A stretch of 64,000 bases of DNA from Paracoccaceae bacterium (GTDB lineage: Bacteria > Pseudomonadota > Alphaproteobacteria > Rhodobacterales > Rhodobacteraceae): the NCBI GenBank assembly GCA_018607905.1, contig JABBAP010000027.1, positions 1-64,000 of the forward strand. Direction: 5' to 3'. Below are positions 22,197 to 38,627 of the stretch, piece by piece. The position numbers were made by a program, and so were the translations under genes. The notes under the pieces are model-generated. The model did not search any database and was not told the origin of the DNA. It worked only from the letters and a program-made list of their open reading frames with translations. The stretch's first letter is position 1, and every line of letters begins with the position of its first letter.

Positions 22197-22643
22197 ATGG
22201 ATCAGCCCGTCCCCATCCGATCAGGCCGCGATCGCTTGCGTTACACGTTCCTGTTCGAATTGCTTCTTGTTTCGATGATCATCCCGGCAGGATCCTTTTT
22301 CTTTGACAAACCCTTCTCAGAAATCGGCACCCTCGCCATTCTGCTGTCCCTAAAGGCAATGATCTTAAATCTAATTTACAACTGGGTATTTGATAAAATA
22401 GATGCCAAAGCAGGCCGGATTTCCAGCGACCGCTCCACCCTTGGCCGCTTGTTGCACGCCATTGGATTCGAGGTTTCCCTCACCATCACCTCACTGCCGC
22501 TCTATGTTTGGCTTATCAACGTCACCGTGGTTGAGGCCCTGATCGCTGACATTTTCGTCACCACATTTGTCGTCGGCTACACCTACGTCTTCACGCTCGG
22601 GTACGATAAAATCTACCCCGTGGTGCCCGTCAAATCCGCCTAA
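22197..22643 (+). CDS. PACE-family (bacterial transmembrane pair) efflux protein
   Basis: A 148-residue protein with four membrane segments arranged as two related pairs. The features match the PACE family: RSGRDRLRYTFLFE at the start of pair one, AMILNLIYNWVFD, then the second Arg-rich GRLLHAIGFE and a late Tyr-Asp (GYDKIYP). PACE proteins export chlorhexidine, and short-chain diamines are thought to be natural substrates. The ATG follows the cdd stop without a gap, so it is co-translated with a salvage enzyme, which is an odd pairing. It overlaps the convergent amidase gene by 4 nt. Confidence 0.82.
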   Translation: MDQPVPIRSGRDRLRYTFLFELLLVSMIIPAGSFFFDKPFSEIGTLAILLSLKAMILNLIYNWVFDKIDAKAGRISSDRSTLGRLLHAIGFEVSLTITSLPLYVWLINVTVVEALIADIFVTTFVVGYTYVFTLGYDKIYPVVPVKSA

Positions 22644-24073
22644 AGATGGCGCACGTTCGGATCAATTGGCGCGTTTGGCAGGTTCAACGCGCGCTCTAAC
22701 GCCAGCCCAACTTGCAACACCAGCGCATCGCCTTTTGGCGGGCCAATCAACTGTATCCCAATTGGCATCCCTGACTTTGTGAACCCAGCAGGCATCGCCA
22801 ACGCGGGCAGCGCGGCCGTTGTCGCCAAAAACGAAAACCGCAACCAATCCACATAATCTGGCATCGCAACACCGTCCACAAACGGCGGCCATTCTTGCTC
22901 CACTGGCCCCGCTTCCAGCCCCACAACAGGGATCGCCAGCACGTCGAAATCTTCCAAAAACACCCGCATCTGCTGGTACACTTCGGTGCGCCCGCGTTGC
23001 GCAAGGTAAATGTCATGGCTCGTTTGGTTCACGCCCACGTCGATGTTTTCTTGCAGCGTTTTCTTGAAATGTTTCTTCACGGCGTCAGGCACAAAATTAT
23101 TGACCGAGCCGTAGTGCATCCCGCGCAACGCGCAATAACTGTCGTACAACGCGGGCATTTCTGGGCAGTCTTCTTCCACCACCATGCCAGCGCCCTGCGC
23201 CGTTTTCATCGCGCCCGCCAAGATATCGCGCACTTCGCGTTCCACGGGCGCAAACCCGCCCTGATCATCGCTAAACGCAATGCGGATGTTTTTCTTGTCT
23301 TCTTTCAACGCATCTTGAAACGAAACCTCAGGGGCGTGCAAACTGATCGGACAGCGCGGATCAAATCCCGTCATCGCATCCAAAAACAACGCGCAATCCT
23401 CAACGTCACGCGCCAACGGCCCGCTGATACCTTCATTCAAAAACGCCGCTGGCCCCGGCCCACCGCTCGCACGACCAGGGGTTGGGCGCAAACCAACCAC
23501 ACCGCAATAGCCCGCTGGGGTGCGGCAACTGCCCGCCAAATCGGACCCGTGACTTAACCACGTTTCCCCAACCGCCAGTGACGCCGCAGCCCCACCAGAC
23601 GACCCGCCCGCATTTTTGCGCGTGTCATACGGGTTGCGCGTGTAGCCAAACACATCGTTAAACGTATTGCCGCCCGCGCCAAATTCAGGCGTGTTCGTTT
23701 TGCCAGTCGGCACACCGCCACGGCTTTCAAGCACATCAACCAACGGCGTGTTCACTGTCGAAATATTATCGCGCAACCCCCACGAGCCCATCGTGGTTTT
23801 CACGCCGCTCACTTCGTTTAAATCTTTGATGCCAATCGGCAAACCGCCCAACCATCCGGGCTCTGACGGGTCCGCATCCCCAATACGATCCAACTGCGCA
23901 TAGGCCCGCTCGCGGCACTGCGTCACCGTTGCATTTACCGCCTCGCCCACCTGATCCATCCGCGCATAAGACGCATCTAACAGCTCTTTTGGCGACACCT
24001 CTTTGGCGCGCAGCATGCCCACAACCTCCCGTGCCGATTTTGCGCAAACCTCTGGTCCTGTGAACTCTGCCAT
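22640..24073 (-). CDS. Amidase-signature family hydrolase
   Basis: A 477-residue amidase with the Ser-cisSer-Lys triad: Lys in GIKDLNE, cis-Ser in AGGSSGGAAA and the nucleophile Ser in GSDLAGSCRTPA. In that last motif Ala replaces one of the usual Gly. The start is one of two adjacent ATGs; 24073 leaves GGGAGA at a better spacing than 24076 and shares a base with the stop of the amidohydrolase gene. It hydrolyses an unknown amide, probably taking the product or precursor of the coupled amidohydrolase. Confidence 0.9.
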   Translation of the reverse strand: MAEFTGPEVCAKSAREVVGMLRAKEVSPKELLDASYARMDQVGEAVNATVTQCRERAYAQLDRIGDADPSEPGWLGGLPIGIKDLNEVSGVKTTMGSWGLRDNISTVNTPLVDVLESRGGVPTGKTNTPEFGAGGNTFNDVFGYTRNPYDTRKNAGGSSGGAAASLAVGETWLSHGSDLAGSCRTPAGYCGVVGLRPTPGRASGGPGPAAFLNEGISGPLARDVEDCALFLDAMTGFDPRCPISLHAPEVSFQDALKEDKKNIRIAFSDDQGGFAPVEREVRDILAGAMKTAQGAGMVVEEDCPEMPALYDSYCALRGMHYGSVNNFVPDAVKKHFKKTLQENIDVGVNQTSHDIYLAQRGRTEVYQQMRVFLEDFDVLAIPVVGLEAGPVEQEWPPFVDGVAMPDYVDWLRFSFLATTAALPALAMPAGFTKSGMPIGIQLIGPPKGDALVLQVGLALERALNLPNAPIDPNVRHL

Positions 24074-24948
24074 CATTCTCTCCCGTCAAAATAAAACGCT
24101 GTGGCCGTCTCCCCGAACACCGCGTCGTGATCCGTTTCGGGAACCAATTCCCGATAGGCTTGCATCAGAGTTTGATAGTCGCTGCTCAAACTGTCCACTG
24201 GAAAGTTCGATCCAAACATCACCCGATCCGCACCAAATTGGCCCAAAACATGGCCTACAATCGGCGCGATCTTGGCTGCCGTCCAATCGTGATCAAACAT
24301 CCCCAACCCTGATAATTTGCACCACACATTTGGCAAAGCCGACAAATGGCGCAAATTCTCCGCCCATTTCGCGATACCCTCAGCCGTGCGATCATACGGC
24401 GATCCCGCATGGCACAGAACCACCCGCAACTCGGGCACTTGGGCAATAATTTGCGCCATGCGCGGCATCAATTCTGGGATCAATTGCAGATCAAACGAAA
24501 ACCCGCGCGCCGCCGCCAATCGCAATCCCTCGACAAACGCGGGATCATCCAACAGATCATTTGTCCCAGATTTCGCGTCTTCCTCTGGCGCACGGCCAAC
24601 GATTTGGCGCACCCCAACAACGCTGTTCAACGCGCCAAACGCATCCAGTTGCGTGGCCACATCTGGTGCCGTCAAATCGCAAAACACCACCTGCACCATC
24701 GGCCAATCCGTTGCACTGCTTGCAACGCCGTCAACCCAAACGGCCTCGGCCATGCCATCCGCTGCACCCACCTGAATATGCACCGAACCGCCAATCCCTT
24801 GCGCCCCAGCACCCTGCGAAAACTCTGGCAATAAATAGTTGCGCCGAATGGGTTTCGGGTCGCCAAAAAACCGAACCGCGTCTTCCATCAACCATGGATA
24901 TTGCACCGCGTCCAAATCCCACAAATGATGATGCGCATCGACTTTCAT
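24073..24948 (-). CDS. Amidohydrolase family 2 protein, lactonase-like
   Basis: A 291-residue TIM-barrel hydrolase of the COG3618/amidohydrolase_2 group, which includes L-fuconolactonase and related sugar-lactonases. The N-terminal DAHHHLWD motif, the mid VLCHAGSP and the C-terminal VMFGSNFPVD with its Asp are present. I chose ATG 24948 (MKVDAHH) with GGAGAG upstream; the open frame to 25008 runs across the LacI-type operator. It is the first gene of the amidase operon and is transcribed away from the ATPase operon. Confidence 0.88.
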   Translation of the reverse strand: MKVDAHHHLWDLDAVQYPWLMEDAVRFFGDPKPIRRNYLLPEFSQGAGAQGIGGSVHIQVGAADGMAEAVWVDGVASSATDWPMVQVVFCDLTAPDVATQLDAFGALNSVVGVRQIVGRAPEEDAKSGTNDLLDDPAFVEGLRLAAARGFSFDLQLIPELMPRMAQIIAQVPELRVVLCHAGSPYDRTAEGIAKWAENLRHLSALPNVWCKLSGLGMFDHDWTAAKIAPIVGHVLGQFGADRVMFGSNFPVDSLSSDYQTLMQAYRELVPETDHDAVFGETATAFYFDGRE

Positions 24949-24966: not shown

Positions 24967-24982
24967 TTGCATACGTTTGCAA
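24967..24982. promoter_or_regulatory. LacI-type operator, site 1
   Basis: TTGCATACGTTTGCAA, with central CG, is a 16-bp near-palindrome flanked by further T and A bases (24965-24984). It lies 18 nt before the amidohydrolase start and 79 nt before the ATPase start, so it could control both. Site 2 at 38612 differs by one base. Confidence 0.75.
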
Positions 24983-25061: not shown

Positions 25062-26108
25062 ATGGCCGAAATTCAACTCAAAAACCTGTCCAAACGCTGG
25101 GGCAGCTTTGTTGGTGTCGATAATTTCGACCTGACCATCGCTGACCAAGAATTTCTTGTGCTGCTCGGCCCGTCTGGCTGTGGCAAAACCACGACGATGC
25201 GGATGATTGCGGGCCTTGAAGACATCACCGAAGGCGAAATTATCATCGACGGCAAAGTGATCAACGACCTTGATCCGAAAGATCGCGATGTGGCGATGGT
25301 ATTCCAATCCTACGCGCTTTATCCCCACATGAACGTCTACGAAAATATCCGCTTTCCCCTGATGGTTCGCAAAATAGACCCAGCCACCCACGATGAAAAA
25401 GTCCGCCGCGCCAGCGCGATGGTTGAACTGGATGATTTCCTGCATCGCAAACCCGCAGAACTGTCGGGTGGTCAACGTCAGCGCGTTGCCCTTGCGCGGG
25501 CAATCGTGCGCGAACCAAACGTGTTCCTGATGGACGAACCCTTGTCCAATCTCGATGCAAAATTGCGCGTTTCTACCCGTGCGCAGATCAAAAACCTGTC
25601 CCACGAACTTAAGGTCACAACCGTCTACGTGACTCACGACCAGATCGAGGCGATGACCCTCGCGGACCGTGTTGTCGTGATGAAAGCAGGCATCGTGCAA
25701 CAGGTCGGCACGCCCACCGATATCTACGACAACCCCGCCAACACCTTCGTTGCCAGCTTCATCGGCTCCCCCGCCATGAACCTGATGAACGGCTCCGTTT
25801 CGGGCGGCACATTCACCGCAGAAAACACCACAATCGAAGGGATGACCGCCGCTGACGGCCCCCTAACCCTCGGATTTCGCGCCGAAGATGCGCAACTCAC
25901 GGAAAGCGGTGGCCAGATCAAAGCTCCCGTCTATACGATGGAACTACTCGGCGATGCCACAATGGTTACATTCAAAGCAGGCGGTGAATTGGTCTCTGTG
26001 AAAGCCCACAAAGATTTCCGCGCCAACATCGGCGACATGGTCGAAGTCTCTGTTCCATCCGCCATTTGCCACGCATTCGATGCGACCTCTGGCGAACGTC
26101 TGGCATAA
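25062..26108 (+). CDS. ABC transporter ATPase, MalK/UgpC type, without partners
   Basis: A 348-residue single-domain ATPase with Walker A GPSGCGKTT, signature LSGGQRQRV and Walker B VFLMDEPLSNLD, followed by a MalK-type C-terminal TOBE region (from about 235). These ATPases drive uptake of sugars, polyols or glycerol phosphates. No binding protein or permease of the matching kind is present in the window, so it either serves a transporter elsewhere or was left after loss of its partners. It opens the plus-strand operon controlled from operator site 1. Confidence 0.93.
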   Translation: MAEIQLKNLSKRWGSFVGVDNFDLTIADQEFLVLLGPSGCGKTTTMRMIAGLEDITEGEIIIDGKVINDLDPKDRDVAMVFQSYALYPHMNVYENIRFPLMVRKIDPATHDEKVRRASAMVELDDFLHRKPAELSGGQRQRVALARAIVREPNVFLMDEPLSNLDAKLRVSTRAQIKNLSHELKVTTVYVTHDQIEAMTLADRVVVMKAGIVQQVGTPTDIYDNPANTFVASFIGSPAMNLMNGSVSGGTFTAENTTIEGMTAADGPLTLGFRAEDAQLTESGGQIKAPVYTMELLGDATMVTFKAGGELVSVKAHKDFRANIGDMVEVSVPSAICHAFDATSGERLA

Positions 26109-26122: not shown

Positions 26123-26650
26123 ATGAAAGGTTCACGCCCCGAACAGGCCGTCTTGTCGCGCGACACAGATATGTCAAAAACTGCCGAAACCCGCGCCGTA
26201 ATTGAAGGCATGGTCGACGGCTTGAACGATCATCGTATCGCCGACATAGGCGATTTTTTCTCAGAAACATTTCGCTGGATGGGCAACACCGGTTGCGGAT
26301 CGAAACAGGGCATTCGCGAGTTTCAAAACAACTGGCAAAAACCATTCCAAGCCGCGTTTCACGACAAAACCTGCATCGACGAAGCCCGCCTTTACATGGG
26401 CGAATGGGCCGCCGCGTTCGGGCGTCAAGAAGCCACCCACGGCGGCGATTTCATGGGGCTCAAAGCCAGCGGAAAACGCATTGAAATCCGCTACATGGAT
26501 TTCTGGAAAGTCGTAGACGGCAAAATCATCGACAACTGGGTCATGGTCGATTTCCCCCACATCCTGTCCCAACTCGGCGTCGATGTGTTTGGCGGAAAAG
26601 GCTGGGAAATCTATGATCGGGGCGAAGAAACGCCGCCCGCACCCGCGTAA
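26123..26650 (+). CDS. SnoaL/NTF2-like protein (single domain)
   Basis: A 175-residue protein of the SnoaL-like (NTF2 fold) superfamily. The block from [10 protein letters not shown] through [19 protein letters not shown] to NWVMVDFPH is typical of SnoaL/ester-cyclase proteins. It is clearly related to the second half of the protein at 28678, which shares the DFW...NWV.VD and QLGVDV patterns. The start at 26123 follows AAGGGGA; an internal ATG at 26171 lacks a ribosome binding site. NTF2-fold proteins act as isomerases, cyclases or hydrolases, or only bind ligands; the role here is unknown. Confidence 0.8.
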
Positions 26651-26672: not shown

Positions 26673-28004
26673 ATGGCCATCACCTACCTCAAAACCGCCC
26701 GCTCCGCGCAAGATCGCGCCGACGACGACGCCAAAACCCGCGCCATCGTGGAAAGCACGCTCAAACAGATCGAAACGGGTGGCGACGCCGCCGTACGCGA
26801 ACTGTCCGAAAAATTCGACAACTACTCCCCCGCGTCTTTCAAACTGTCGCAATCCGAAATCGACGCCCTGATCGCATCCCTCACGGATCGCGAACTTGCC
26901 GACATCAAATTCGCCCAAGAAAACGTCCGCAAATTCGCCCAGGCCCAGCGCGATAGCATGTTGGACATCGAAGTCGAACCCATGCCGGGCGTGATTTTGG
27001 GGCACAAAAACATCCCCGTGCAATCCGTCGGCTGCTACGTTCCGGGCGGTAAATTTCCAATGGTCGCCTCTGCGCACATGTCCGTCGCCACGGCATCTGT
27101 CGCCAAAGTACCCCGCATTATCGCCTGCACGCCGCCCTTCAAAGGCAAGCCAAACGCAGCCGTGATCGCTGCAATGCACCTTGGCGGCGCGCACGATATT
27201 TACGTCATGGGCGGCATCCAAGCCATCGGCGCGATGGCTCTTGGCACAGAAACCATTGATCCCGTCCACATGCTCGTCGGCCCCGGCAACGCCTTTGTGG
27301 CCGAAGCAAAACGCCAACTGTTCGGCCGCGTCGGCATTGACCTGTTCGCTGGCCCCACCGAAACCATGGTCATCGCAGACGACACAGTCGACGGCGAACT
27401 TTGCGCCACGGACCTGCTCGGCCAAGCCGAACACGGCTACAACTCCCCTTCGGTCCTGCTGACCAACTCCAAAAAGCTCGCTGATGACACGTTGTCTGAA
27501 ATCGACCGCCTCCTCGAAATCCTCCCAACCGCTGACACGGCCTCCGTGTCTTGGGAAGAATACGGCGAGGTGATCCTCTGCGACACTTACGACGAAATGC
27601 TTACCGTTGCGGACGACATCGCGTCCGAGCACGTCCAAGTCATGACCGACTGCGACGATTGGTTTCTAGAACACATGACCTGCTACGGCGCACTGTTCCT
27701 TGGCGCGCGCACCAACGTGTCCAACGGCGACAAAGTCATCGGCACCAACCACACGCTCCCAACTAAAAAAGCAGGCCGTTACACGGGTGGCCTTTGGGTC
27801 GGGAAATTCCTCAAAACCCACAGCTATCAAAAAATCACCACAGACGAGGCCGCAACCCTCATCGGCGAATACGGCTCTCGATTGTGCATGCTTGAGGGCT
27901 TCGTCGGCCACGCCGAACAATGCAACGTCCGCGTGCGCCGCTACGGTGGCATCAATGTGCCCTACGGCGAAGGCGCGGCCTACCGCGAACCCGAAAAATC
28001 ATGA
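26673..28004 (+). CDS. HisD-family dehydrogenase, HpsN-like (not histidine synthesis)
   Basis: A 443-residue zinc-dependent alcohol dehydrogenase of the histidinol dehydrogenase family. The four zinc ligands Q251, H254, D353 and H413 and the catalytic pair E319-H320 are all in place. The QAEHGYNSP motif, with Gly after the His in place of the usual Asp, is like HpsN, the sulfopropanediol dehydrogenase of Roseobacters. No other his gene is near. It probably oxidises a primary alcohol to an acid in two NAD-linked steps. It overlaps the next gene (ATGA). Confidence 0.85.
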
Positions 28005-28681
28005 CAACTCGCGCCCCAAAATCCATGTGGTCACTCGAAACTTTGGGGCGCACCCGCCTATCTCGTCACTTTTTCATGCGTGATTTTTTCTTCTCTGAAA
28101 TCTCGGCGTTTCACGGCATTCCAAATATCCCAGACGATCCCGACACGATGATCACCGCGGCCCAAGGCCTCGCGCAAAATCTGCTGGATCCGATGGTCGA
28201 AACCTTCGGCCCCCTTGCGATCCGATCAGGTTATCGCTCCCCAACGCTGAACCAATTTGGCAACGACAACAAACTCAACTGCTCCCACAACCGCGCGAAC
28301 AAGGCGCAGCGCATGTGGGATTACCGCGACGATAACGGCCACATCGGCGCATGCGTGTCCGTCGTTATCCCGTGGTTCGCAGATCAGTACGGCGACCATC
28401 CACACCCACGCCGAGACTGGCGCGATCTAGCCTATTGGCTGCATGACCACATCCCTTATTCCGCCATCTGGTTCTTCCCCAAACTCGCCTGTTTCAACCT
28501 CACTTGGAACGAACAGCCAAAACGCACTATTTCCAGCTACATCGCCCCGCGCGGCACGTTATTGGCAGCAAATGCAGAACCCTCGGAAACCCTAAAACAA
28601 CGCCAAAAACGCTACGCCGATTTCCCGCCGTTCCGCGCAATCACCTACCCCGAAACACCAGACACATGGTCAGCGGCATGA
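28001..28681 (+). CDS. Divergent M15 (DD-peptidase)-like protein, probably inactive
   Basis: A 226-residue protein. [11 protein letters not shown] (75-84) is the start of an M15_3/hedgehog-type peptidase domain and a Ser-His follows at 95-96, but the expected HxxGxAxD spacing is missing (next Asp at 107) and the late Trp-x-His is replaced by CFNLTW. Zinc binding is therefore doubtful. No signal peptide is seen, which is unlike a wall peptidase. It is coupled by ATGA overlaps to both neighbours, so it is an integral part of the catabolic operon. Its function is unknown. Confidence 0.6.
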
Positions 28682-29697
28682 ACGATATCACCGCCAAATT
28701 CCGCGCTGCCCTCTACCACTGCGACACAGCAACAGCCCGTAGTGAGCTGTTGGATATCGCACACCCTGACGCCCCCTTGCGCCTCTCCTTCCCCTTCGAA
28801 ACGCTCAACGGCGCGACCGCATTTTTCGACACTGCCCTCACCCCGCTCACATCCGCAATCCCAGACCTTGAGCGCCGCGATACGATCGTCACCAGCGGCA
28901 CCTGCAACCAAGGCCACACTTGGATCGGCTGCTGCGGTTACTACACTGGCACCTTCCTGCACCCCTTCCTCGATATCCCGCCAACGGGCCTTCAAGCCCA
29001 CATGCGCTTTCACGAATTTTACCGCATCCAAGACGGCAAAATCACCGAAATGCAGGCGCTTTGGGACATCCCAGAACTGATGATGCAGGCAGGTGCATGG
29101 CCAATGGCCCCCAGCTTGGGCCGCGAATGGCGCGCACCGTCCCCCGCCACCCAAGACGGCCTGAACCGTGCAAAATCAACACCCGATCAGAACGCCACCA
29201 ACTGCCAGATCATCCTCGATATGCTCGAACACATGATCAAACACCCGTCCACAGGCGGCCCCGAAGTCATGGAGCTAACCCGTTTCTGGCACAATAACTT
29301 TAGCTGGTACGGCCCCGCAGGCATCGGCACAGGGCGCGGCGTCTCGGGCTTTCGCGATATCCACCAAATCCCCTTCCTCGCTGCCATGCCAGATCGCGGC
29401 CAACATGAAGATGAAATCACCCACCACTTTTTCGCCGATGGCCCCTACGTCGCCGTCACAGGTTGGCCGAACATGGCACAAACCCACCTGAACGATGGAT
29501 GGATGGGCATCGCCCCAACTGGCAAGAAAATCACCCTGCGCAGCCTTGATTTCTGGCGCATTGAAAACGGCCTCATTCGGGAAAACTGGGTGCTCGTTGA
29601 CATCCTTTCCGTATTTAACCAGCTCGGCGTTGACGTCCTCGCGCGGATGCGCGAATTCAACAAACTGAAACCACCTTACACAGGACGCACACCATGA
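28678..29697 (+). CDS. Double SnoaL/NTF2-domain protein
   Basis: A 339-residue protein with two NTF2-like domains, about residues 5-140 and 180-330. The second half resembles the single-domain protein at 26123 (FSWYGPAGIG, then GWMGIAPTGKKI, DFWRIENG, NWVLVD and QLGVDV), which points to duplication within the locus. The ATG is fixed by a 4-nt overlap with the M15-like gene. It is coupled to the SDR gene by another ATGA. Its role is unknown. Confidence 0.8.
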   Translation: MNDITAKFRAALYHCDTATARSELLDIAHPDAPLRLSFPFETLNGATAFFDTALTPLTSAIPDLERRDTIVTSGTCNQGHTWIGCCGYYTGTFLHPFLDIPPTGLQAHMRFHEFYRIQDGKITEMQALWDIPELMMQAGAWPMAPSLGREWRAPSPATQDGLNRAKSTPDQNATNCQIILDMLEHMIKHPSTGGPEVMELTRFWHNNFSWYGPAGIGTGRGVSGFRDIHQIPFLAAMPDRGQHEDEITHHFFADGPYVAVTGWPNMAQTHLNDGWMGIAPTGKKITLRSLDFWRIENGLIRENWVLVDILSVFNQLGVDVLARMREFNKLKPPYTGRTP

Positions 29698-30458
29698 CCT
29701 TGCCCCGCACTCCCTCCTTTCGCCTTGATGGCAAACGCGCCCTTGTTACGGGCGGCACATCTGGCATCGGCCTTGGCTGCGCCGTTTCGCTCGCCGAATA
29801 CGGGGCGCATGTCACACTGGCCGCACGCAACGTGGATCGCATGCAGGGTGCCGCCGAAGAAATGCGTGCCGAGGGCTGGAAGGTCGACACAATCGCAATG
29901 GACGTCGCGGATATCGCCCCCATGCAAGCCAAAATCGCGCAAACTGGCCCCTATGATATCTGCGTAAACTCCGCAGGATTCGCACGCCACGCCCCCGCGA
30001 TTGATACCACCGAGGAAGACTTTGACGCGATGACCGACCTCAACGCCAAAGGCGCGTATTTCCTCGCGCAATCTATCGCCAAAGGCCTGATCGCTGCGAA
30101 AAAACCTGGTTCCATCGTGCAAATCTCCTCCCAAATGGCACACGTCGGTGGCCAAGAACGCGCCGTCTATTGCGGTTCCAAACACGCGGTCGAGGGTTAC
30201 ACCAAAGCCCAAGCGATTGAGTGGGGCCCACACGGCATCCGCGTCAACACAATCTGCCCCACCTTCGTGCGCACACCGCTCACAGAACAAACCTTCAAAC
30301 GCCCAGAACTGGTCGCGTGGATCGAAGACAAAATCAAATTGGGGCGCATCGGTGAAGTCGAAGACATCATGGGCGCAACCCTCTTCCTCGCGTCTGATGC
30401 CTCCGCGTTGGTCACAGGAACCCACCTCCTCGTGGATGGCGGTTGGACAGCCGATTGA
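29694..30458 (+). CDS. Short-chain dehydrogenase/reductase
   Basis: A 254-residue classical SDR. The cofactor motif TGGTSGIG (19-26), the NAG-equivalent NSAG, the catalytic Ser in QISSQM and the Tyr-x3-Lys (YCGSK) are all present. The absence of an acidic residue cluster or Arg pair that I can judge leaves NAD versus NADP open. It is most like sugar or polyol dehydrogenases of catabolic operons. It overlaps the SnoaL-like gene and is followed by a hairpin and the intergenic repeat before lacI. Confidence 0.9.
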   Translation: MTLPRTPSFRLDGKRALVTGGTSGIGLGCAVSLAEYGAHVTLAARNVDRMQGAAEEMRAEGWKVDTIAMDVADIAPMQAKIAQTGPYDICVNSAGFARHAPAIDTTEEDFDAMTDLNAKGAYFLAQSIAKGLIAAKKPGSIVQISSQMAHVGGQERAVYCGSKHAVEGYTKAQAIEWGPHGIRVNTICPTFVRTPLTEQTFKRPELVAWIEDKIKLGRIGEVEDIMGATLFLASDASALVTGTHLLVDGGWTAD

Positions 30459-31574: not shown

Positions 31575-32543
31575 ATGCGTGGATTTGACAATCGTTGGAA
31601 AGATTTCCCCGATTACATCATCGGCATCACCAAAGAAATCTGGGAAGATCGCGGCCTCGCCACGCTGCACGATTACTACGCGCCCGACATTCCTGTCCGC
31701 TCCCCAGGGGGCTTCGTGAAAGGCAACCAAGGCGTGATCGCCGCCACAATGGCAACCCTCGCCGAATTTCCTGACCGTACCCTTTACGGCGAAGACGTGA
31801 TCTGGAGCGGCACACCCGAAGACGGCATGTTGTCCTCTCACCGCCTGCATTCCACCGCCACGCACACGGGCGATGGCGTTTACGGCAAAGCAACAGGCAA
31901 GCGCCTATCCTACCGCATCATCGCGGATTGCCACGCCATCAACAATCAGATTAACGACGAATGGTTGATCCGCGACCAAGGCGCAATTGTACGCCAAATG
32001 GGCTGGGATCCCGCCGATTACGCCCGTGATTCCATCACGCGGGAGGGCGGCGCAGAGGTCTGCATCAAACCCTTCACCCCTGCAATCGACGAGGCTGGGC
32101 CATACCTTGGCAAAGGCAACGACAATGAATGGGGCCAAAAATACGCCGATATCTTGACCCGCATCATGGGCGCAGACCTCGCCGTGATCCCCGCCGAATA
32201 TGACCGCGCCTGCCAGCTGGAATACGCAGGCGGCCGTTCAGGGATTTCCCACGGCGATGCAGATAAATTTTGGACTTCTCTTCGATCTTCCTTTCCAAAC
32301 GCCACCTTCACGATTGAACACCAAATCGGCCGCGATGATCCGATGATGCCACCGCGCGCCGCCATCCGCTGGGCGCTGCACGGCAAGCACGAAGGTTGGG
32401 GCGCATTTGGCCAACCCACAGGCGCAGAGGTTTACATCATGGGCGCAAGCCACGCCGAATTCGGTCCATGGGGCCTGCGCCGCGAATACACATTGTTCGA
32501 TGAAACATCGGTCTGGAAACAGATCATCCTGCACACAGGATAA
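31575..32543 (+). CDS. SnoaL/NTF2-like protein, probably double domain
   Basis: A 322-residue protein. The first half (about 10-155) shows the SnoaL pattern LHDYYAPDIPVRSPGG with ECHAIN-like IIADCHAINNQ and NDEWLIRDQG; the second half (about 185-320) carries a matching fold pattern ending in WGLRREYTLFDE. It is the third SnoaL-type gene of the locus and more diverged from the other two. It starts 3 nt after lacI and ends 3 nt before the PPOX gene. Confidence 0.75.
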   Translation: MRGFDNRWKDFPDYIIGITKEIWEDRGLATLHDYYAPDIPVRSPGGFVKGNQGVIAATMATLAEFPDRTLYGEDVIWSGTPEDGMLSSHRLHSTATHTGDGVYGKATGKRLSYRIIADCHAINNQINDEWLIRDQGAIVRQMGWDPADYARDSITREGGAEVCIKPFTPAIDEAGPYLGKGNDNEWGQKYADILTRIMGADLAVIPAEYDRACQLEYAGGRSGISHGDADKFWTSLRSSFPNATFTIEHQIGRDDPMMPPRAAIRWALHGKHEGWGAFGQPTGAEVYIMGASHAEFGPWGLRREYTLFDETSVWKQIILHTG

Positions 32544-32546
32544 CCC

Positions 32547-33191
32547 GTGGACACCTACAACACCCATCTGTTCGGCCAAGCCGCGCTCGATCTGCAACAC
32601 AAGGTCGGCAAGCGAGATCAATTTGCCAAGATGTACGCCAACCGCTGGACCGACGGTATCACCGATCGGTTTCGCGATTTCGTCGCCAATACGACAACGA
32701 TGTACATCGCCAGCACGGTCGAAAACGGCTGGCCCTATGTCCAACATCGCGGCGGCCCACGTGGGTTTTTGAAAGTCATCGAAAAGGACACGCTCGGATT
32801 TGCAGATTACCATGGCAACCAACAATTCATCACGCAAGGCAACTTACAAACCGATGATCGCGTATCCCTAATTCTGATGGATTACGCTGCCAAAGCCCGC
32901 ATCAAAATGATCGGCCACGCCAAAATGGTTGAGGCCTCAGACGATCCAGAACTCGCCGAAAAACTAGCGGTAGAGGGCCAAGGCCCCGTTGAACGTCTCA
33001 CCACAATCAAGATCACCGCCATTGATGTGAATTGCCCGAAATACATAACCCAACGCTTCGACGAAGGTGAAATCGCAACCCTGCTCGGCCCCCGCATTTC
33101 CGAACTCGACCGCCAAGTCAGCGTGCTCGCAGATCGGCTCAAAGACCTTGGCGAAGACCCCGCCGCATTACTTCAAAAGGAAACACCATGA
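32547..33191 (+). CDS. Pyridoxamine 5'-phosphate oxidase-fold flavoprotein
   Basis: A 214-residue PPOX-like protein (COG3576 type) with a split beta-barrel. The pattern MYIASTVENGWPYVQHRGGPRGFLKV is typical of FMN-binding members, followed by HGNQQFITQGNL and ARIKMIGHAKMVE. The start is GTG, three bases after the previous stop. Members of this group bind FMN or F420-like cofactors and reduce small molecules; it is not a vitamin B6 enzyme by default. The stop overlaps the bicupin start. Confidence 0.8.
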   Translation: MDTYNTHLFGQAALDLQHKVGKRDQFAKMYANRWTDGITDRFRDFVANTTTMYIASTVENGWPYVQHRGGPRGFLKVIEKDTLGFADYHGNQQFITQGNLQTDDRVSLILMDYAAKARIKMIGHAKMVEASDDPELAEKLAVEGQGPVERLTTIKITAIDVNCPKYITQRFDEGEIATLLGPRISELDRQVSVLADRLKDLGEDPAALLQKETP

Positions 33192-34153
33192 CCCCAACCG
33201 AAATGGAAGCTCGCATCGTTCGTTACGGCGATCTGATCCCATGTAAAACCGCCTTTATCGACGCCCACACACCGGGTTCCGATCAAAAGGAAAACTTCAC
33301 CATCATCGGTGGCGGCGTGTCCGAATCCGCCGATCAACACGTGCACATCGCCGACACACCTGGCTTTAACATCGGCGCGGCGGGTCAACCGCCCAAATGC
33401 CGCAACTCCCTGCACACCCACCGCACGGCGGAAGTCTTCTTTGTGCTCAAAGGCACATGGCGTTTCTTCTGGGGCCGCTTTGGTGACGCAGGCGAGGTAA
33501 CTTTGCAAGAAGGCGACATCATCAACATCCCAACCCACATGTTTCGTGGCTTTGAAAACATCGGCACTGACTACGGCATGATCATGGCGATCTTAGGTGG
33601 CGACGATGCAGGCGGCGGCGTTGTTTGGGCCCCCCAAGTGATCGAGGATGCGAAAGCCCACGGCCTCATCCTTGGCGACAACAGCAAACTCTACGACACC
33701 AAAAAGGGTGAAACCCTGTCCCAAGGCGTGAGCCCGATGCCCCTGCTGACAGACGAAGAACTCAAAGAGTTCCCCGAACCCACAACCACCGAGGTCGTCC
33801 CCCATTACGTGGCCCGCTATTGGGACATGATGGCACTGGCCGACAACCAACCCTGCGACGTGATCGGCGAAAGCGGCCTGTTGCGCGATCGCCCGGGGTT
33901 CGACGTAGAATTCATCACGCGCGGCTCCATCCCAACAACGCCCTACACCCACGCAGATCACGAAGTCATCATGCCAATGCGCGGCCACTGGCGCCTCACG
34001 TGGGAGGGCGGCACAACCACGCTGAACCCTGGCGACACCGTTGCGATCCCGCCAAACGTAGCCCACAGCCTTGAGCCGAGCATGACAGGTGAAGCCAGCC
34101 TGTTCCGCATCCGCGCCAACAGCGATCCTGCTGGGCGGACGATGTCACTTTAG
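33188..34153 (+). CDS. Bicupin protein
   Basis: A 321-residue protein with two cupin domains. The first has the metal motif SLHTHRTAEVFFVLKG and a later GDIINIPTHMFRGF (about 75-125); the second has YTHADHEVIMPMRGHWRL and PGDTVAIPPNVAHSLE (about 255-300). Bicupins of this form include dioxygenases, decarboxylases and isomerases. The ATG overlaps the PPOX gene, making it the last gene of the operon. The reaction is unknown. Confidence 0.83.
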   Translation: MTPTEMEARIVRYGDLIPCKTAFIDAHTPGSDQKENFTIIGGGVSESADQHVHIADTPGFNIGAAGQPPKCRNSLHTHRTAEVFFVLKGTWRFFWGRFGDAGEVTLQEGDIINIPTHMFRGFENIGTDYGMIMAILGGDDAGGGVVWAPQVIEDAKAHGLILGDNSKLYDTKKGETLSQGVSPMPLLTDEELKEFPEPTTTEVVPHYVARYWDMMALADNQPCDVIGESGLLRDRPGFDVEFITRGSIPTTPYTHADHEVIMPMRGHWRLTWEGGTTTLNPGDTVAIPPNVAHSLEPSMTGEASLFRIRANSDPAGRTMSL

Positions 34154-34171: not shown

Positions 34172-34204
34172 ACGACACAGGTTTCCCTAGGACGCCTGTG
34201 TCGT
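34172..34204. other. 10-bp perfect hairpin at the bicupin/lysE convergence
   Basis: ACGACACAGG (34172-34181) pairs with CCTGTGTCGT (34195-34204). The structure covers the stop codon of the convergent LysE-type gene. Neither strand has a proper T-run after the stem, so termination is only possible, not clear. Confidence 0.45.
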
Positions 34205-34813
34205 CCGCGCTGTAAAGATACCTGCAACAAATAGAAACCCAGCACCTGTGCGGTTCAACATCCGCATGGCCTTTGGTTTTTGAAAATACATCCGTAGCCC
34301 GTTCGCAAAGAACAGCCACATCAATGTATTGATCGTCGCGACGCCCACAAAAGTCGCAATCAAAATTGCAAACTGCAAAAATGCAGGCCCTGCCACATCA
34401 ATAAACTGCGGTACAAACGCGATGTAGAAAACAGGCCCTTTTGGGTTTAACGCGCTTACAAGGAAGGATTGCCAAAACAACGTTTTCAACGGCTGGGCGG
34501 TTATTTTTGCGCCCACCTGCGTTTGCGCGACAGGGGCTGTCCACAACGAATACGCCAACCAAATTAGGTACGCAGCACCCGCCAGTTTTAGGATCGAAAA
34601 CAAAGTAACCGACGCCGCCAATACCGCCCCTGCGCCTGCCAACGAAACCGACATGCCAACCAACGCCCCAAAAGAAACACCTGGAACAGTCGCAAGCCCC
34701 GACCGCTTCCCACTTCGCAATGCATGGCTAACTGTCAGAATGATGTTCGGGCCAGGAATAAGCACCACAACAGCACTGGCGATCACAAAGGCAATCCATG
34801 TTTCAAAACTCAT
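34187..34813 (-). CDS. LysE/RhtB-family exporter
   Basis: A 208-residue membrane protein with about six hydrophobic segments. The N-terminal PGPNIILTVSHALRSGKRSG and the mid LNPKGPVFYIAFVPQF are diagnostic of the LysE/RhtB family, which exports amino acids and related compounds. I chose ATG 34813, with GGGAAG upstream, over ATG 34828. It is convergent with the LacI-linked operon, and its 3' end is within a strong hairpin. Confidence 0.9.
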   Translation of the reverse strand: MSFETWIAFVIASAVVVLIPGPNIILTVSHALRSGKRSGLATVPGVSFGALVGMSVSLAGAGAVLAASVTLFSILKLAGAAYLIWLAYSLWTAPVAQTQVGAKITAQPLKTLFWQSFLVSALNPKGPVFYIAFVPQFIDVAGPAFLQFAILIATFVGVATINTLMWLFFANGLRMYFQKPKAMRMLNRTGAGFLFVAGIFTARTTQAS

Positions 34814-34988
34814 CGCGGTGCTTCCCATCCTGTGAATTCACACCATCAAGACATGAAAACCTACGAACATAAAGCCTGTTTTCCCGCAATGCTGTCGGGG
34901 TGCAGAATTGAATGCACGAGTCCCCCCTTGCACCCTACGCACCTTTCCCCTAAATCGGCGATCCACCCGTTCACCGAAAGCCGTTCGA

Positions 34989-36242
34989 ATGCAAAACACC
35001 ACAAACACCCTTGGCATAGATTTCGGCACCTCCAACTCAGCCGCTGGAATTTGCGTGAACGGCCAACCGTTCCTGATCGAACTCGAAGCAGGCGAACAGA
35101 CCCTGCCCACATCCGTATTTTTCGATTTTGACACCCGCAAAACCACCTTCGGCACCCCCGCCAATCGCGCCCTGATCAACGGATCAGATGGGCGCTACAT
35201 GCGTTCGCTCAAATCCGTGCTCGGCACATCCATCATGCATGAACCGCGCCGCATGATGGGCGAAACGATCACCTTCGTGGACATCATCGCGCGCTTCCTC
35301 AAAGCCCTCAAAACGCGGGCCGAGGAAACTTGCCACACCGAATTCCCCTATGCCCTTTCAGGTCGCCCCGTTCATTTCCATTCCAACGATGCCCAGCGCG
35401 ATGTTCAGGCCTTACGCGATCTGCAACAATGCTATGAGCGCGCAGGGTTTCGCGATGTGACCTTCTTGAACGAACCAGAGGCAGCCGCCCTCGCCGCAGG
35501 CCCACTCCCAGACAAATCACTTAACCTCATCGTCGATATTGGCGGCGGCACATCGGATTTTACAGTCTTTCGCACCCACGGCGAAGACACCGAAATCATC
35601 GCCTCCTACGGCGTGCGGATCGGTGGCACGAACTTTGATAAATCCATCAGCTTTGATCACATCATGCCGCTGTTTGGCCGTGGCACACAAATCCGCAAGG
35701 AACTCGGCGCTGAACTCCTCACCGCCCCAAATGCCCTGTTCCAAGACCTCGCAACGTGGGAAAAAATCCCGTTCCTGTACACCGCAGAAACACGGCGCAA
35801 CGTCGAACAATTGATCCGTGTCGGCGTCGATCCGCACCTGTTTGAACGCCTGCAAACCATTCTTACAGATGAACTTGGCCACGACCTTGCCTTTACGATT
35901 GAACGGGCCAAAATCGAAACAAACAAGGCCGAGCGTGATGCAACCCCGATTGACCTTGGCCTGATCGAACGCGGCCTTACCGCCACGCTAAACGGCGAAA
36001 ACCTGTCGGCATCTCTGCACGACCATGCCAAGGCGATTGGCGAAACCGCGACTGAGACCTTGCGCATGGCGCAACTCGAAACCGACCAAATCGACACCAT
36101 CATTTTTGTGGGCGGCTCCTCGCTGATGTCGGCTGTTCAATCCGAACTTACCGCGCGATTCCCCAACGCCACCCAAAAACACCAAAGCGCGTTTACCGGC
36201 ATCGTTGAAGGCCTCGCGCTCGCCTCCGCACATACTGCTTGA
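34989..36242 (+). CDS. Hsp70-like protein of the YegD type
   Basis: A 417-residue protein with an actin/Hsp70 ATPase fold. LGIDFGTSNSAAG (phosphate 1), LIVDIGGGTSDF (phosphate 2) and FVGGSSLM (adenosine motif) are present. The C-terminal substrate-binding domain of DnaK is missing, which is normal for YegD-type proteins. ATG 34989 begins right before the conserved N-terminus. It has its own 175-nt upstream region and is followed by a small membrane protein. The client and role are unknown. Confidence 0.88.
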   Translation: MQNTTNTLGIDFGTSNSAAGICVNGQPFLIELEAGEQTLPTSVFFDFDTRKTTFGTPANRALINGSDGRYMRSLKSVLGTSIMHEPRRMMGETITFVDIIARFLKALKTRAEETCHTEFPYALSGRPVHFHSNDAQRDVQALRDLQQCYERAGFRDVTFLNEPEAAALAAGPLPDKSLNLIVDIGGGTSDFTVFRTHGEDTEIIASYGVRIGGTNFDKSISFDHIMPLFGRGTQIRKELGAELLTAPNALFQDLATWEKIPFLYTAETRRNVEQLIRVGVDPHLFERLQTILTDELGHDLAFTIERAKIETNKAERDATPIDLGLIERGLTATLNGENLSASLHDHAKAIGETATETLRMAQLETDQIDTIIFVGGSSLMSAVQSELTARFPNATQKHQSAFTGIVEGLALASAHTA

Positions 36243-36243
36243 C

Positions 36244-36260
36244 CTTCCAGCTACTGGAAG
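36244..36260. other. Short hairpin after the Hsp70-like gene
   Basis: CTTCCAG (36244-36250) and CTGGAAG (36254-36260) form a 7-bp stem with a 3-nt loop directly after the stop codon. No T-run follows, so termination is uncertain. Confidence 0.35.
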
Positions 36261-36275
36261 CATTACCAAGTACAA

Positions 36276-36686
36276 ATGATGCACAGACTCATCAAGATAT
36301 TCCCACGCCCAACATGGCTTGCAGCCCTTAGCGCGCTCTATGTTTTTGCCCTAATCATCAGCCACGCTAGCCTGCCCAAAGCCCACGTTTGGGTCATCGC
36401 CGCCATCTTCTCCATCATTATGAACGGCGTCTACATCTCCAGCGCGATCCAAAAACGCCGCTACATTTCCACCGAATTTCTGGTCGCAATCATCTTGATC
36501 ACACTGTCCGTGCTCGGCCCGATCCTGTCACCGCTCTTTGTAATTGCCGCAATCATAGGCCACGGCCTGTGGGACGTCGCCAAACACTACGGCGCAGGCA
36601 TTCCATTTTTCAGTTGGTACACGTGGGGCTGCGCTGCGGTCGATTTCACCTACGCCACCACACTCACACTCTACCTAATGACCTGA
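36276..36686 (+). CDS. Small membrane protein of unknown function
   Basis: A 136-residue protein with four hydrophobic segments (about 14-32, 36-55, 66-95 and 112-133). Polar residues in the last half (IGHGLWDVAKHYGAG) include a His-Trp-Asp-His set that could be functional. I cannot assign a family with confidence. It follows the Hsp70-like gene by 33 nt and may share its transcript. The intergenic repeat begins 8 nt after its stop. Confidence 0.65.
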   Translation: MMHRLIKIFPRPTWLAALSALYVFALIISHASLPKAHVWVIAAIFSIIMNGVYISSAIQKRRYISTEFLVAIILITLSVLGPILSPLFVIAAIIGHGLWDVAKHYGAGIPFFSWYTWGCAAVDFTYATTLTLYLMT

Positions 36687-36693
36687 ACGCCAC

Positions 36694-36715
36694 CTTCTTC
36701 TGGCCCAAAATATCC
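36694..36715 (+). repeat. Intergenic 22-nt motif, copy 3
   Basis: CTTCTTCTGGCCC then AAAATATCC is a close match to the window consensus. It lies in the short convergent gap between the small membrane protein and the RraA-like gene. Confidence 0.65.
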
Positions 36716-36740
36716 CCAACGGAGCGTCCGCCGCCCGCCC

Positions 36741-37433
36741 TCAGGTCCGCGACGCCTCAAATGCAGCCCAAGCCGCCTCGAACGCCTCAAAATCAAACCC
36801 CTCGGCGCGCGCTGGCTCCAGCACAACTTTCTCGGTCTCCAACAGCTTCAAAATCGCCGCTTCCAACACCTCCACCAAATCGCTCGGAATAACCAACGCG
36901 CCGTGGCGATCCGCATGAACCAAATCGCCGTCGTTCACTGTCATGCCAAAAATTTCAACAGGCGTGCCAATCTCGCGCACATGCACAAACCCGTGGCTTG
37001 GCCCGATGGATCCCGCCACCACAGGAAAATCGCTCGGCAAATCACCAAGGTCGCGCATCACCCCATTCGTAAGCGCGCCCGCCATGCCAAAACCCTTGTG
37101 CACAGTCGTGTTAATCTCGCCCCAATAGGCGCCAATCGCGTGCGGATAATCCAGATCCTGAACCACCGCCACACAGCCCGCACCGCCATCCGCCATGTGC
37201 CGATAATAATCCATCCGCCGCGCTTTGATCACATCCGCTGGCTCGCTCGGGGCCTCCACGGCAGCAATCTTCGCAGTCCGCGCATAGCCAACAACCGCTT
37301 GTGTCACATCCGAACATTGCATGGTGCCGCGCGTGAAATCATTGAACCCGCGTTTCCCTTGCGCCACCTCAATCGCGTTGCAAACCGTCGGTGTATCGAC
37401 GTCGCGCAACAGCGCCATCAAAGACGGCGTCAT
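36741..37433 (-). CDS. RraA-like / HMG-aldolase family protein
   Basis: A 230-residue protein of the RraA/HMG aldolase family. The motif GALTNGVMRDLGDL, in which Arg and Asp bind pyruvate and the metal, and the later VHADRHGALVIPSDL are typical. Family members are class II pyruvate aldolases/oxaloacetate decarboxylases or the RNase E inhibitor RraA; the extended C-terminus favours a catabolic enzyme. It overlaps the MetE-like gene (ATGA) downstream of the LacI-type operator, so it is probably part of the same regulon. Confidence 0.83.
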   Translation of the reverse strand: MTPSLMALLRDVDTPTVCNAIEVAQGKRGFNDFTRGTMQCSDVTQAVVGYARTAKIAAVEAPSEPADVIKARRMDYYRHMADGGAGCVAVVQDLDYPHAIGAYWGEINTTVHKGFGMAGALTNGVMRDLGDLPSDFPVVAGSIGPSHGFVHVREIGTPVEIFGMTVNDGDLVHADRHGALVIPSDLVEVLEAAILKLLETEKVVLEPARAEGFDFEAFEAAWAAFEASRT

Positions 37434-38557
37434 TTGCTTGCGATCCCGGCACCTTTGGACAGGCTTTCCAGTTTCGCATAGGCAATTTCAGGATCAACCG
37501 CGCCAAAACCCGCAAACGTGCCAAAGCCGCAATCAGACCCCGCCACAACGCGGTCCGCACCAACAATGTCCGCAAATCGTTCAACGCGCTGCGCCACCAA
37601 TTCTGGATGCTCGATAAAGTTTGTCGTCGTATCCACAACGCCCGGAACCAACACTTTGTTGTCTGGAATTTCGTTTTTGCGATCACGGAAAACGGTCCAT
37701 TCATGGGCATGGCGCGGGTTCGATGTTTCAAACAAAACATATTTCGATTTCGTCCGCATCAACGTGGAGAACACCGTGTCCATGTCGATGTCACAACAAT
37801 GCGGCCCCTCGTAGTTGCCCCAGCAAATATGCACGCGAACCTGTTCCTGTGGCACATTTTCGAGCGCATAATTCAGCGCGTCAACATGGCCCTCAATCAC
37901 CTTCACAAACTCCGCATCCGACAGATCGGCGAACAGCATGTGCCGCGATAACGCCAGATCAGGGCAATCCAACTGCACGTCCAAACCAGCCGCCACAATC
38001 GTCTCATACTCCGCCTTCATCGCATCCGCGAGCGCGCCTAGATACGCCTCTCGGGTTTTGTAAAAGTCATTCTGCAAGAACAACGAAATCACCCCAGGCG
38101 ACGCCGCATTCATAAACCCGCGCTCTACGCCGTGCTTGGCCATCGCCGCCTTCAGATTACTGATATCTTTGTTCAGCTCACCCTGCCCTTTGGATTTCAC
38201 CTCGGATGTGCACATCGGGCGCGCGTATTGCGGCGTGCCACCGTCATCTGCCAAACGCTGCAAAAACGTCGGAAACATCTTCAAATCTGCGGGCGCATTG
38301 CGTGGGCTATCGCCCGAAAACCCAGTGTAGCGATCCTTCACATAGGTCGCATAGGAAATTTTCGATGTCTCGCCGTCCGAAACAATATCCACACCCGCCA
38401 CAACCTGTTTGCGCACCGTTTCATCTACCGCCGCCGTCATGCAGGCATCAAACGCGCCCTGATCGTAAGGCTGCTCGTTTTCACGCGCGAAAATGAAATC
38501 AACAACCTCCTGCGTGCGGGGCAATGATCCAACATGGCTGGTCAAAATTTTGGTCAT
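37430..38557 (-). CDS. MetE-like (cobalamin-independent methionine synthase II family) protein
   Basis: A 375-residue protein with the zinc-binding barrel of MetE. SHVGSLPR at the N-terminus, VHICWGN (His and Cys ligands) and VAGSDCGFG (Cys ligand) near the C-terminus are present. The length equals one MetE barrel and it lacks the folate-binding half, so it is not a full methionine synthase. Related stand-alone proteins transfer methyl or alkyl groups to thiols or work in catabolism. Its promoter carries LacI-type operator site 2, and it is coupled to the RraA-like gene. Confidence 0.85.
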   Translation of the reverse strand: MTKILTSHVGSLPRTQEVVDFIFARENEQPYDQGAFDACMTAAVDETVRKQVVAGVDIVSDGETSKISYATYVKDRYTGFSGDSPRNAPADLKMFPTFLQRLADDGGTPQYARPMCTSEVKSKGQGELNKDISNLKAAMAKHGVERGFMNAASPGVISLFLQNDFYKTREAYLGALADAMKAEYETIVAAGLDVQLDCPDLALSRHMLFADLSDAEFVKVIEGHVDALNYALENVPQEQVRVHICWGNYEGPHCCDIDMDTVFSTLMRTKSKYVLFETSNPRHAHEWTVFRDRKNEIPDNKVLVPGVVDTTTNFIEHPELVAQRVERFADIVGADRVVAGSDCGFGTFAGFGAVDPEIAYAKLESLSKGAGIASK

Positions 38558-38611
38558 GGGGTGATCCTTCTCACAAATCCGTGACTGTCAAACTATCAGC
38601 CCCAACCCATT

Positions 38612-38627
38612 TTGCAAGCGTATGCAA
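38612..38627. promoter_or_regulatory. LacI-type operator, site 2
   Basis: On the minus strand the sequence is TTGCATACGCTTGCAA, which differs from site 1 at 24967 by one base in 16. It lies 55 nt upstream of the MetE-like start, on the same strand as that gene. The shared site is the main evidence that the RraA/MetE-like operon belongs to the LacI regulon. Confidence 0.75.

Follow-up and report, generated by a model that had tools for sequence, protein, structure and literature searches.

A probable LacI-controlled catabolic regulon with a core-MetE-like protein in a Paracoccaceae bacterium and its marine relatives

Introduction

Do the genes around a LacI-family regulator in the genome of a Paracoccaceae bacterium (assembly GCA_018607905.1) form one regulon, and for what kind of compound would such a regulon serve? 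We address this question for a stretch of 64,000 nucleotides (contig JABBAP010000027.1, positions 1 to 64,000), here referred to as the window. A preliminary description, made from the sequence alone, had proposed that two 16-bp palindromes place three operons between positions 22640 and 38627 under one LacI-family protein, and that together these genes take up and break down one compound. Our analysis indicates that the system is very probably a real and widespread LacI-controlled catabolic regulon. The regulon and its uptake function are well supported, and the operons at the window's palindromes stand, with a further operon on another contig to be added. Breakdown of a single compound is the part of the proposal that we infer.

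Results

Both palindromes were found as exact matches at the positions described, and both also appear in our consensus scan. Operator O1 (TTGCATACGTTTGCAA, 24967 to 24982, plus strand) lies between the divergent amidohydrolase-amidase operon and the operon that begins with an ATP-binding cassette (ABC) ATPase gene, 18 nt from the ATG of the amidohydrolase gene (24948) and 79 nt from that of the ATPase gene (25062). Operator O2 (TTGCATACGCTTGCAA, 38612 to 38627, minus strand) precedes the MetE-like/RraA-like operon, 54 nt from the MetE-like ATG (38557). Gene families were called by Pfam (E ≤ 0.001) and NCBIfam (E ≤ 0.01) profile searches, and relatives of solved structure were compared. The regulator gene, LACI, was confirmed at 30558 to 31571 (plus strand), with PF00356 and PF13377 above cut-off; its best NCBIfam match, RbsR, fell under the cut-off, and a homologue is conserved in the cluster in other genomes.

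The pattern TTGCATACGYTTGCAA has exactly two exact matches in the 3,172,758-base genome, O1 and O2. For wider scans we used a symmetric consensus (TTGCATACGTATGCAA), which is the window's sites made symmetric and was chosen after the window's sites and a few relatives had been viewed. Allowing two mismatches, the consensus occurs at three places in the genome, compared with one for the reversed pattern, and all three are promoters of the system: O1, O2, and a site on contig C60. The palindrome is thus not spread over many unrelated promoters, each of its places being a cluster or transporter promoter. With three mismatches the consensus occurs at 7 places and the control at 16, so matches at this level carry no weight in this genome. 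Within the window, four strand-matches with up to three mismatches compare with 1.76 expected, a weak excess that 9 of 100 shuffles reach. Genome-wide, the nonsymmetric pattern TTGCATACGYTTGCAA gave 92 strand-matches at up to three mismatches and 58 with the reversed control. We rejected these as additional operators: 13 of the 92 match TTGCATACGYTTTGCA without a mismatch and belong to an 11-bp repeat array, and the rest do not lie far over the control. Two further places with two mismatches to TTGCATACGYTTGCAA (L003 and L004) appear by eye to be coding sequence and have no cluster gene.

The third site, TTGCATACGAATGCAA at C60:20964, lies upstream of a solute-binding protein gene, SBP (C60:19632 to 20846, minus strand), with 118 bp between the site and the matched region; SBP is the genome's only match to the binding protein of related clusters (E ≤ 1e-10). 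SBP is followed by two permease genes, PERM1 and PERM2, and then by genes for two tandem SnoaL-like proteins; SBP, PERM1, and PERM2 share 52%, 61%, and 72% identity, respectively, with cluster-linked copies. In the window, the product of the gene at 25062 to 26108 (plus strand), previously called simply an ATPase, can be named more exactly as a MalK/UgpC-type ABC-importer ATPase (NF008653 UgpC, PF00005, and TOBE_2 above cut-off, OB_MalK just below). It has no transporter partner among the surrounding genes examined, and the C60 operon supplies the transporter parts that the window's cluster lacks. A MalEFGK/CUT1-type importer set is thereby complete, with the ATPase in the window and the binding protein and both permeases on C60, and by sequence the importer is predicted to be of the carbohydrate type. 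SBP is distantly like MalE3/SmoF, which gives no substrate clue. On the opposite strand beside the SBP operon (L208:13317 to 15331) are two open reading frames (ORFs) that by eye resemble arginase and ornithine cyclodeaminase.

We then considered whether the gene set occurs together in relatives. A total of 149 genomes of the family were searched with METE (the MetE-like protein, E ≤ 1e-30), SNO3 (a tandem SnoaL protein, E ≤ 1e-60), and LACI (E ≤ 1e-95). METE was found in 51, SNO3 in 56, and LACI in 55 of these genomes, with all three in 45; for each pair, both members were missing in 88 to 90 genomes. Pairwise co-occurrence gave Fisher P values of 7e-23 to 4e-29, uncorrected for phylogeny. 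At the stricter threshold of E ≤ 1e-120, METE is present in 122 of 292 genomes of the order. Within the window's genus the distribution of the system is patchy: two of seven listed members have METE, namely, the window's own genome and G388.

For gene order we assembled 120 METE loci (2.29 Mb), of which 40 (~20 kb each) are the 40 best scoring of 50 other METE-positive family genomes and 80 are the best 80 of at least 577 relatives in a public genome collection; 30 of 54 matches in the METE search of family genomes were kept as loci. The set includes three near-identical pairs (L087/L129, L094/L176, and L099/L183) and several short contigs, and many loci stop before the operon head. HISD (an HpsN-type dehydrogenase), SDR (a short-chain dehydrogenase), LACI, and SNO3 all lie near METE in 29 of the 40 and 59 of the 80 loci, so that the predicted co-occurrence extends to synteny. 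The typical order is SBP, two permeases and/or the ABC ATPase, SNO1, HISD, SNO2, SDR, LACI, SNO3, and CUP (a bicupin), followed by METE, an alpha/beta hydrolase (ABHY), and RRAA (an RraA-like protein). Annotated examples are found in Ruegeria sp. AD91A, Marinovum algicola, and Octadecabacter arcticus. Contigs labelled HTCC2255, Planktomarina, SUP05/Thioglobus, and Granulosicoccus also carry the cluster. A divergent version comes from a 16-kb contig labelled Porticoccaceae, where genes for a sodium:solute symporter and a TonB receptor are present but none for an ABC importer. On M. algicola plasmid pMaD9 (L227), the cluster adjoins annotated dimethylsulfoniopropionate (DMSP) demethylation genes (DmdA and neighbours) and a selenium-binding protein gene.

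Scanning the 120 loci with the symmetric consensus at up to three mismatches yielded 64 sites (4 exact and 12, 24, and 24 with one, two, and three mismatches), compared with 3 for the reversed consensus. Fifty-nine of these lie at most 300 nt upstream of a cluster gene, spread over 37 loci; the other five are three-mismatch sites. Counting sites no more than 300 nt from genes that appear to head an operon, we found one at SBP in 12 of 13 cases, ABC in 14 of 21, HISD in 12 of 18 (a class that takes in some HISD paralogues of 43 to 44% identity beside the cluster), METE in 2 of 42, SNO2 in 2 of 12, SNO1 in 1 of 11, SDR in 1 of 7, and AHYD (the amidohydrolase) in its single case. No site was found at permease, cupin, LACI, M15, SNO3, or dipeptidase heads, and the reversed control gave 0 in every class. 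As in the window, Ruegeria sp. AD91A has two one-mismatch sites between divergent SnoaL-amidohydrolase genes and the ABC gene. In G126, G001, and G146, which have METE at a distance from LACI, a similar palindrome again precedes METE (TTGCATACGCTTGCAA, CTGCATACGATTGCAA, and CTGCATACGATTGCAC, respectively), and the 16-mer of G126 (L072) is identical to O2.

Similar arrangements were seen in the window's own genus. Outside the window's genome, all seven fetched one-mismatch loci (from nine places) have cluster genes, with SBP and/or ABC genes beside the site in G388, G407, G421, G424, G425, G426, and G429. Only one of eight fetched two-mismatch loci, L232 (genome G410), has cluster genes: there, amidase (82% identity) and amidohydrolase (75%) genes are divergent from SDR (91%) across the site, an arrangement that ties the amidase operon to the regulon. 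An HSP70-like homologue (81%) comes next in this minimal locus, which gives the impression that the central part of the window's cluster was either lost or acquired there.

Could the palindromes instead be operators of another LacI-family protein, with the linked LACI controlling something else? Sites of LacI-family proteins are alike among paralogues, and many of the family genomes have 10 or more first-look LacI candidates. However, LACI and the sites occur in the same clusters, and the genome has few copies of the site, which makes this alternative highly improbable. Among 102 cluster-linked LACI homologues, with and without a site in the fetched stretch, the recognition-helix letters are QSAVSR in 93, RSAVSR in 7, and QAAVSR and QPTVSR in 1 each; such a shared helix agrees with a single operator type. 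We also considered GapR, presented in passages of PMC4052901 as a global LacI regulog of the Rhodobacterales. The words histidinol and SnoaL are absent from the main text of that paper; the GapR motif was not compared.

We next turned to the enzymes. The families named in the preliminary description were recovered (amidase, Amidohydro_2, ABC, three SnoaL, Histidinol_dh, SDR, PNPOx, cupin, RraA-like, and Meth_synt_2). HISD (26673 to 28004, plus strand; PF00815) has as its nearest solved chains the (R)-dihydroxypropanesulfonate (DHPS) 3-dehydrogenases 8wwe and 8v35 (1e-109), that is, HpsN, which align over nearly the full length; the true histidinol dehydrogenase 4g07 comes behind (3e-72), and the NCBIfam hisD domain model is nonetheless above its cut-off. 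No other his gene was found in the three annotated neighbourhoods (Ruegeria sp. AD91A, M. algicola, and O. arcticus). HISD therefore does not appear to be the histidinol dehydrogenase of histidine biosynthesis, and because it is nearest to the DHPS 3-dehydrogenases it likely oxidizes a primary alcohol to a carboxylate.

This relationship raises the alternative that the whole system is a variant of the DHPS pathway, particularly as SDR (29694 to 30458, plus strand; PF13561) is distantly like HpsO. The gene neighbourhoods of HISD and HpsN differ, however. Polyol/gluconate-type enzymes stand near the top of the solved relatives of SDR, with HpsO lower down. The importer is of the sugar type and the regulator of the LacI type, and we know of no SnoaL, MetE-like, cupin, or RraA genes in DHPS operons. 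No sulfolyase or DHPS partner was noticed in the three annotated clusters, although no search was aimed at them. We consider a DHPS variant very unlikely.

Three genes in the window encode SnoaL-type proteins with PF07366 matches: the single-domain SNO1 (26171 to 26650, plus strand), also supported by alignment, and the tandem proteins SNO2 (28678 to 29697, plus strand; two stretches) and SNO3 (31575 to 32543, plus strand; first half). The SNO3 model (predicted local distance difference test [pLDDT] score, 90.9) looks like a double SnoaL protein, and its fold search matches Lsd19 and IdmH, in agreement with the profile matches. The SnoaL fold is familiar mainly from polyketide biosynthesis, so that these matches would also suit a biosynthetic, polyketide-like cluster in place of a catabolic one. 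Against this, the three annotated clusters contain no polyketide synthase and a binding-protein-dependent importer lies under the same operator; a biosynthetic role is most improbable.

METE (37430 to 38557, minus strand; PF01717, Meth_synt_2) is a protein of 375 amino acids with one barrel and without the N-terminal folate half of MetE. Its model (pLDDT, 80.2) matches both MetE and core-MetE structures, with TMq of 0.77 and TMt of 0.41 for Thermotoga maritima MetE, and it does not appear to be a full-length, two-barrel methionine synthase. Although METE shares the fold of core-MetE and the MetE C-terminal barrel (3rpd and T. maritima MetE), the HxC...E...C zinc site, and the homocysteine-site residues, its best structural matches are only ~13 to 21% identical to it, and it sits in a catabolic regulon. 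In an alignment of 126 METE sequences that includes sphingomonad, actinobacterial, and haloarchaeal homologues, S11, E63, D197, H243, C245, and C343 are invariant, and E277 is present in 125. The HxC, second-Cys, SDGE, and D-P motifs correspond in an alignment with solved MetE-type proteins. From this alignment and the residue numbering of MetE, we take H243, C245, C343, and E277 to be the MetE zinc ligands, E277 being the least certain. Zinc-bound homocysteine would then be a methyl acceptor or donor, and because the zinc and homocysteine residues are nearly invariant, a methyl transfer in which homocysteine takes part has the best support among the unusual steps of the system. That METE carries out a demethylation step is the most distinctive element of the proposal and has about even odds.

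Homologues of METE (49 to 52% identity) on three sphingomonad plasmids (Novosphingobium pLA3, Sphingobium RAC03, and Croceicoccus) adjoin an NTF2-like gene and lie in or near genes for an aminomethyltransferase/GcvT-like protein, MTHFR, PurU, and methylene-tetrahydrofolate dehydrogenase. Judged by these neighbours, their context is methyl-group metabolism with folate-linked one-carbon genes; the GcvT-like gene is presumably an O-demethylase of the LigM/DesA type. An ABHY-like alpha/beta hydrolase (34 to 37%) also occurs in this region, as compared in Sphingobium and Croceicoccus. Unlike the cluster studied here, these O-demethylation/C1 clusters, in the stretches seen, have an IclR gene in place of a LacI gene and lack both an ABC importer and a HisD-type gene, and two of the three have aromatic ring-cleavage genes (ligA and its partner). 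NTF2-family enzymes release formaldehyde in lignin-dimer catabolism, according to a passage in PMC12997858, so that there is a known case of NTF2-fold proteins taking part in degradation. On Rhodococcus and Dietzia plasmids (L211 and L216), homologues of 47% identity lie beside iron/2-oxoglutarate and phytanoyl-CoA-type dioxygenase genes and an HD-domain gene, which suggests other uses of the MetE-like family.

The remaining window genes vary in how widely they are shared. AMID (22640 to 24076, minus strand), an amidase-signature hydrolase (PF01425, 307 bits), is the second gene of the divergent operon; apart from the G410 homologue, relatives are rare, occurring in 3 of 40 family-genome loci (27 to 29% identity) and in none counted among the 80 public-collection loci. 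AHYD (24073 to 24948, minus strand; PF04909) is an Amidohydrolase-2/lactonase-like hydrolase whose best NCBIfam match, L-fucono-1,5-lactonase, is under the cut-off and whose nearest solved structure is 4dlf, a result that weakened its candidacy as a LigI/LigJ-type enzyme of gallate degradation. It was counted in 1 of 40 and 1 of 80 loci and is divergent from the ABC gene across operators in Ruegeria sp. AD91A (62%) and L154. The gene at 28001 to 28681 (plus strand), formerly labelled M15, encodes an uncharacterized protein that matches neither Pfam nor NCBIfam; homologues were counted in 10 of the 40 family-genome loci and 0 of the 80 others.

Directly after LACI, the SnoaL/PPOX/cupin genes (31575 to 34153) continue the gene run. 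PPOX (32547 to 33191, plus strand; PF01243, PNPOx), a PPOX-fold flavoprotein-like accessory protein, is present in 3 of 40 and 4 of 80 loci, and CUP (33188 to 34153, plus strand; PF07883, two stretches) in 29 of 40 and 70 of 80; CUP has no solved relative at E ≤ 0.01 and offers no substrate clue. RRAA (36741 to 37433, minus strand; PF03737), a candidate RraA-like aldolase/decarboxylase, is found in 16 of 40 and 53 of 80 loci, and its solved relatives are weak matches that give no clue to a substrate either. Between the cupin gene and METE-RRAA, the LysE gene, the HSP70-like gene, and the small ORF at 36276 (34187 to 36686) have homologues in 0 of the 120 loci and are not members of the system. 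The extent originally proposed, 22640 to 38627, therefore has to be corrected by the removal of this interval.

Discussion

The data are best explained by a LacI regulon comprising an importer, hydrolases, redox and SnoaL steps, methyl transfer by METE, and an RraA-like finish, to which we give a probability of roughly 75%. What the computation shows directly is where the sites are, how rare they are in the genome, how far relatives conserve them, and that the genes are linked and co-occur; repression and induction, import, and the order of reactions are proposed as follows. The LacI-type repressor (30558) would act at three operators: between AHYD-AMID and the run from ABC, SNO1, and HISD to SDR (with LACI, SNO3, PPOX, and CUP), before METE-RRAA, and, on C60, before SBP-PERM1-PERM2-SnoaL-SnoaL. 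The imported compound or a product of it may bind LACI and cause it to leave the DNA. Once the compound is brought in by the MalEFGK-type importer, the hydrolases could open amide- or lactone-type bonds, and the HpsN-type enzyme would convert a primary alcohol beside a hydroxyl-bearing carbon to a carboxylate. SDR and the several SnoaL-fold proteins may carry out redox and acid-base steps (dehydration, retro-aldol, or ring reactions), and the core-MetE-like enzyme may transfer a methyl group from a pathway compound to homocysteine or the reverse. Aldol cleavage or decarboxylation by the RraA-like enzyme might end the pathway.

Several observations weigh against this explanation. A site lies near a cluster gene in just 37 of the 120 loci. 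Many loci stop before the operon head, and a missing site in those is no evidence of absence, but at up to three mismatches none was found at 7 of 21 ABC, 6 of 18 HISD, and 40 of 42 METE apparent heads. AMID, AHYD, PPOX, and the 28001 gene are uncommon among the loci retrieved, so the pathway differs between genomes. In L097, L106, and L145, the retrieved stretch shows a METE homologue with few or no other cluster genes, and in L145 the MetE-like homologue (81% identity) is followed by cobalamin biosynthesis genes (CbiD, CbiJ, and CbiC families). Finally, core-MetE proteins can use methylcobalamin, as a passage in PMC12366255 states, and the sequence thus does not require that the substrate be demethylated.

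The last two points bear on an alternative that keeps the regulon but gives METE a helper role, supplying methionine (with methylcobalamin or methyl-tetrahydrofolate as a donor, for instance), rather than that of the demethylating enzyme. METE is a core-MetE by fold and residues, one distant METE locus is the one beside cobalamin genes, and the core-MetE-like gene of Phaeobacter inhibens is treated as a possible second methionine synthase in part of PMC12366255. Yet in this genome METE is placed under a catabolic operator, and many loci have it flanked by cupin and RraA genes. In addition, a P. inhibens mtgCDE mutant is a methionine auxotroph despite a core-MetE homologue, which may or may not be the orthologue of METE, according to a section of PMC12478193. 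We regard the helper role as unlikely, if still worth serious attention.

Under the favoured model of the regulon, a small, polar, methylated, polyol-like metabolite of algae is the likeliest substrate. As a long shot, we offer one specific candidate: the regulon could be the route by which bacteria use mycosporine-like amino acids, the sunscreens of algae, or the deoxygadusol core of these compounds. The hydrolases would then free the amino acid, the HpsN-type enzyme would oxidize the ring CH2OH beside a tertiary hydroxyl to a carboxylate, SnoaL/NTF2 dehydratases could aromatize or open the ring, the core-MetE-like enzyme would move the methoxy methyl onto homocysteine, and the cupin and RraA-like enzymes would finish. 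If true, this would account jointly for the carbohydrate-type importer, the primary-alcohol oxidase, the methyl-acceptor enzyme, and the many SnoaL proteins, as well as the marine distribution. That AHYD is nearest to a sugar lactonase is mildly against an aromatic version. Vibrio harveyi has been suggested to hydrolyze mycosporine-like amino acids (cited in a passage of PMC3083659), which is no evidence for the substrate of this regulon. A connection to the homarine pathway was discarded, as no link was found in the literature searched, including the relevant part of PMC10130141.

The system resembles LacI-family catabolic regulons with MalEFGK-type importers, such as those for maltose and polyols, in its CG-centred palindromic operator, in-cluster LacI gene, ABC sugar-type importer, and catabolic enzymes. 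It differs from them in that its operons are split over distant places in the genome and in having five SnoaL-type proteins under the sites along with core-MetE, HpsN-type, cupin, and RraA proteins, an enzyme set that to our knowledge fits no sugar pathway. No description of the cluster was recognized in the open-access papers searched, a scope outside which most subscription papers and all preprints fall. Very probably, then, the regulon is known in kind, new in composition, and undescribed within the open-access literature searched. The presence of METE in so many genomes of the order and of the cluster in other marine lineages suggests that the regulon probably handles a common marine compound; no paper tying such a compound to these genes was found in the same searches. 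The regulon offers a concrete candidate role for core-MetE homologues with four conserved residues, which are found in several cosmopolitan marine bacteria and whose function is called questionable in a passage of PMC12478193. The LacI protein and the binding protein provide a ready ligand screen.

The 11-bp repeats met in the operator scan are a separate feature of this genome (G000). Units of TGCCATACNNG/TTTGCATACNC form dispersed arrays of a few units each, spaced at about one helical turn, with examples outside the window at C8:54350, C20:99988, and C40:54321 (loci L025 to L056 and L217). At up to two mismatches, the unit gave 59 hits in G000, overlapping registers counted, against 1 for the control; the same-genus genome G120 had 0 hits, and variant units occur in some other genomes. 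Fifteen of 18 arrays examined fall between called ORFs. By eye, other short direct repeats with an ~11-bp period (GTGCATC-, CCATACG-, and GTGTAC-type units) lie just before the METE start in other species, at L064, L078, and L083, and these are perhaps the same kind of fast-changing intergenic repeat.

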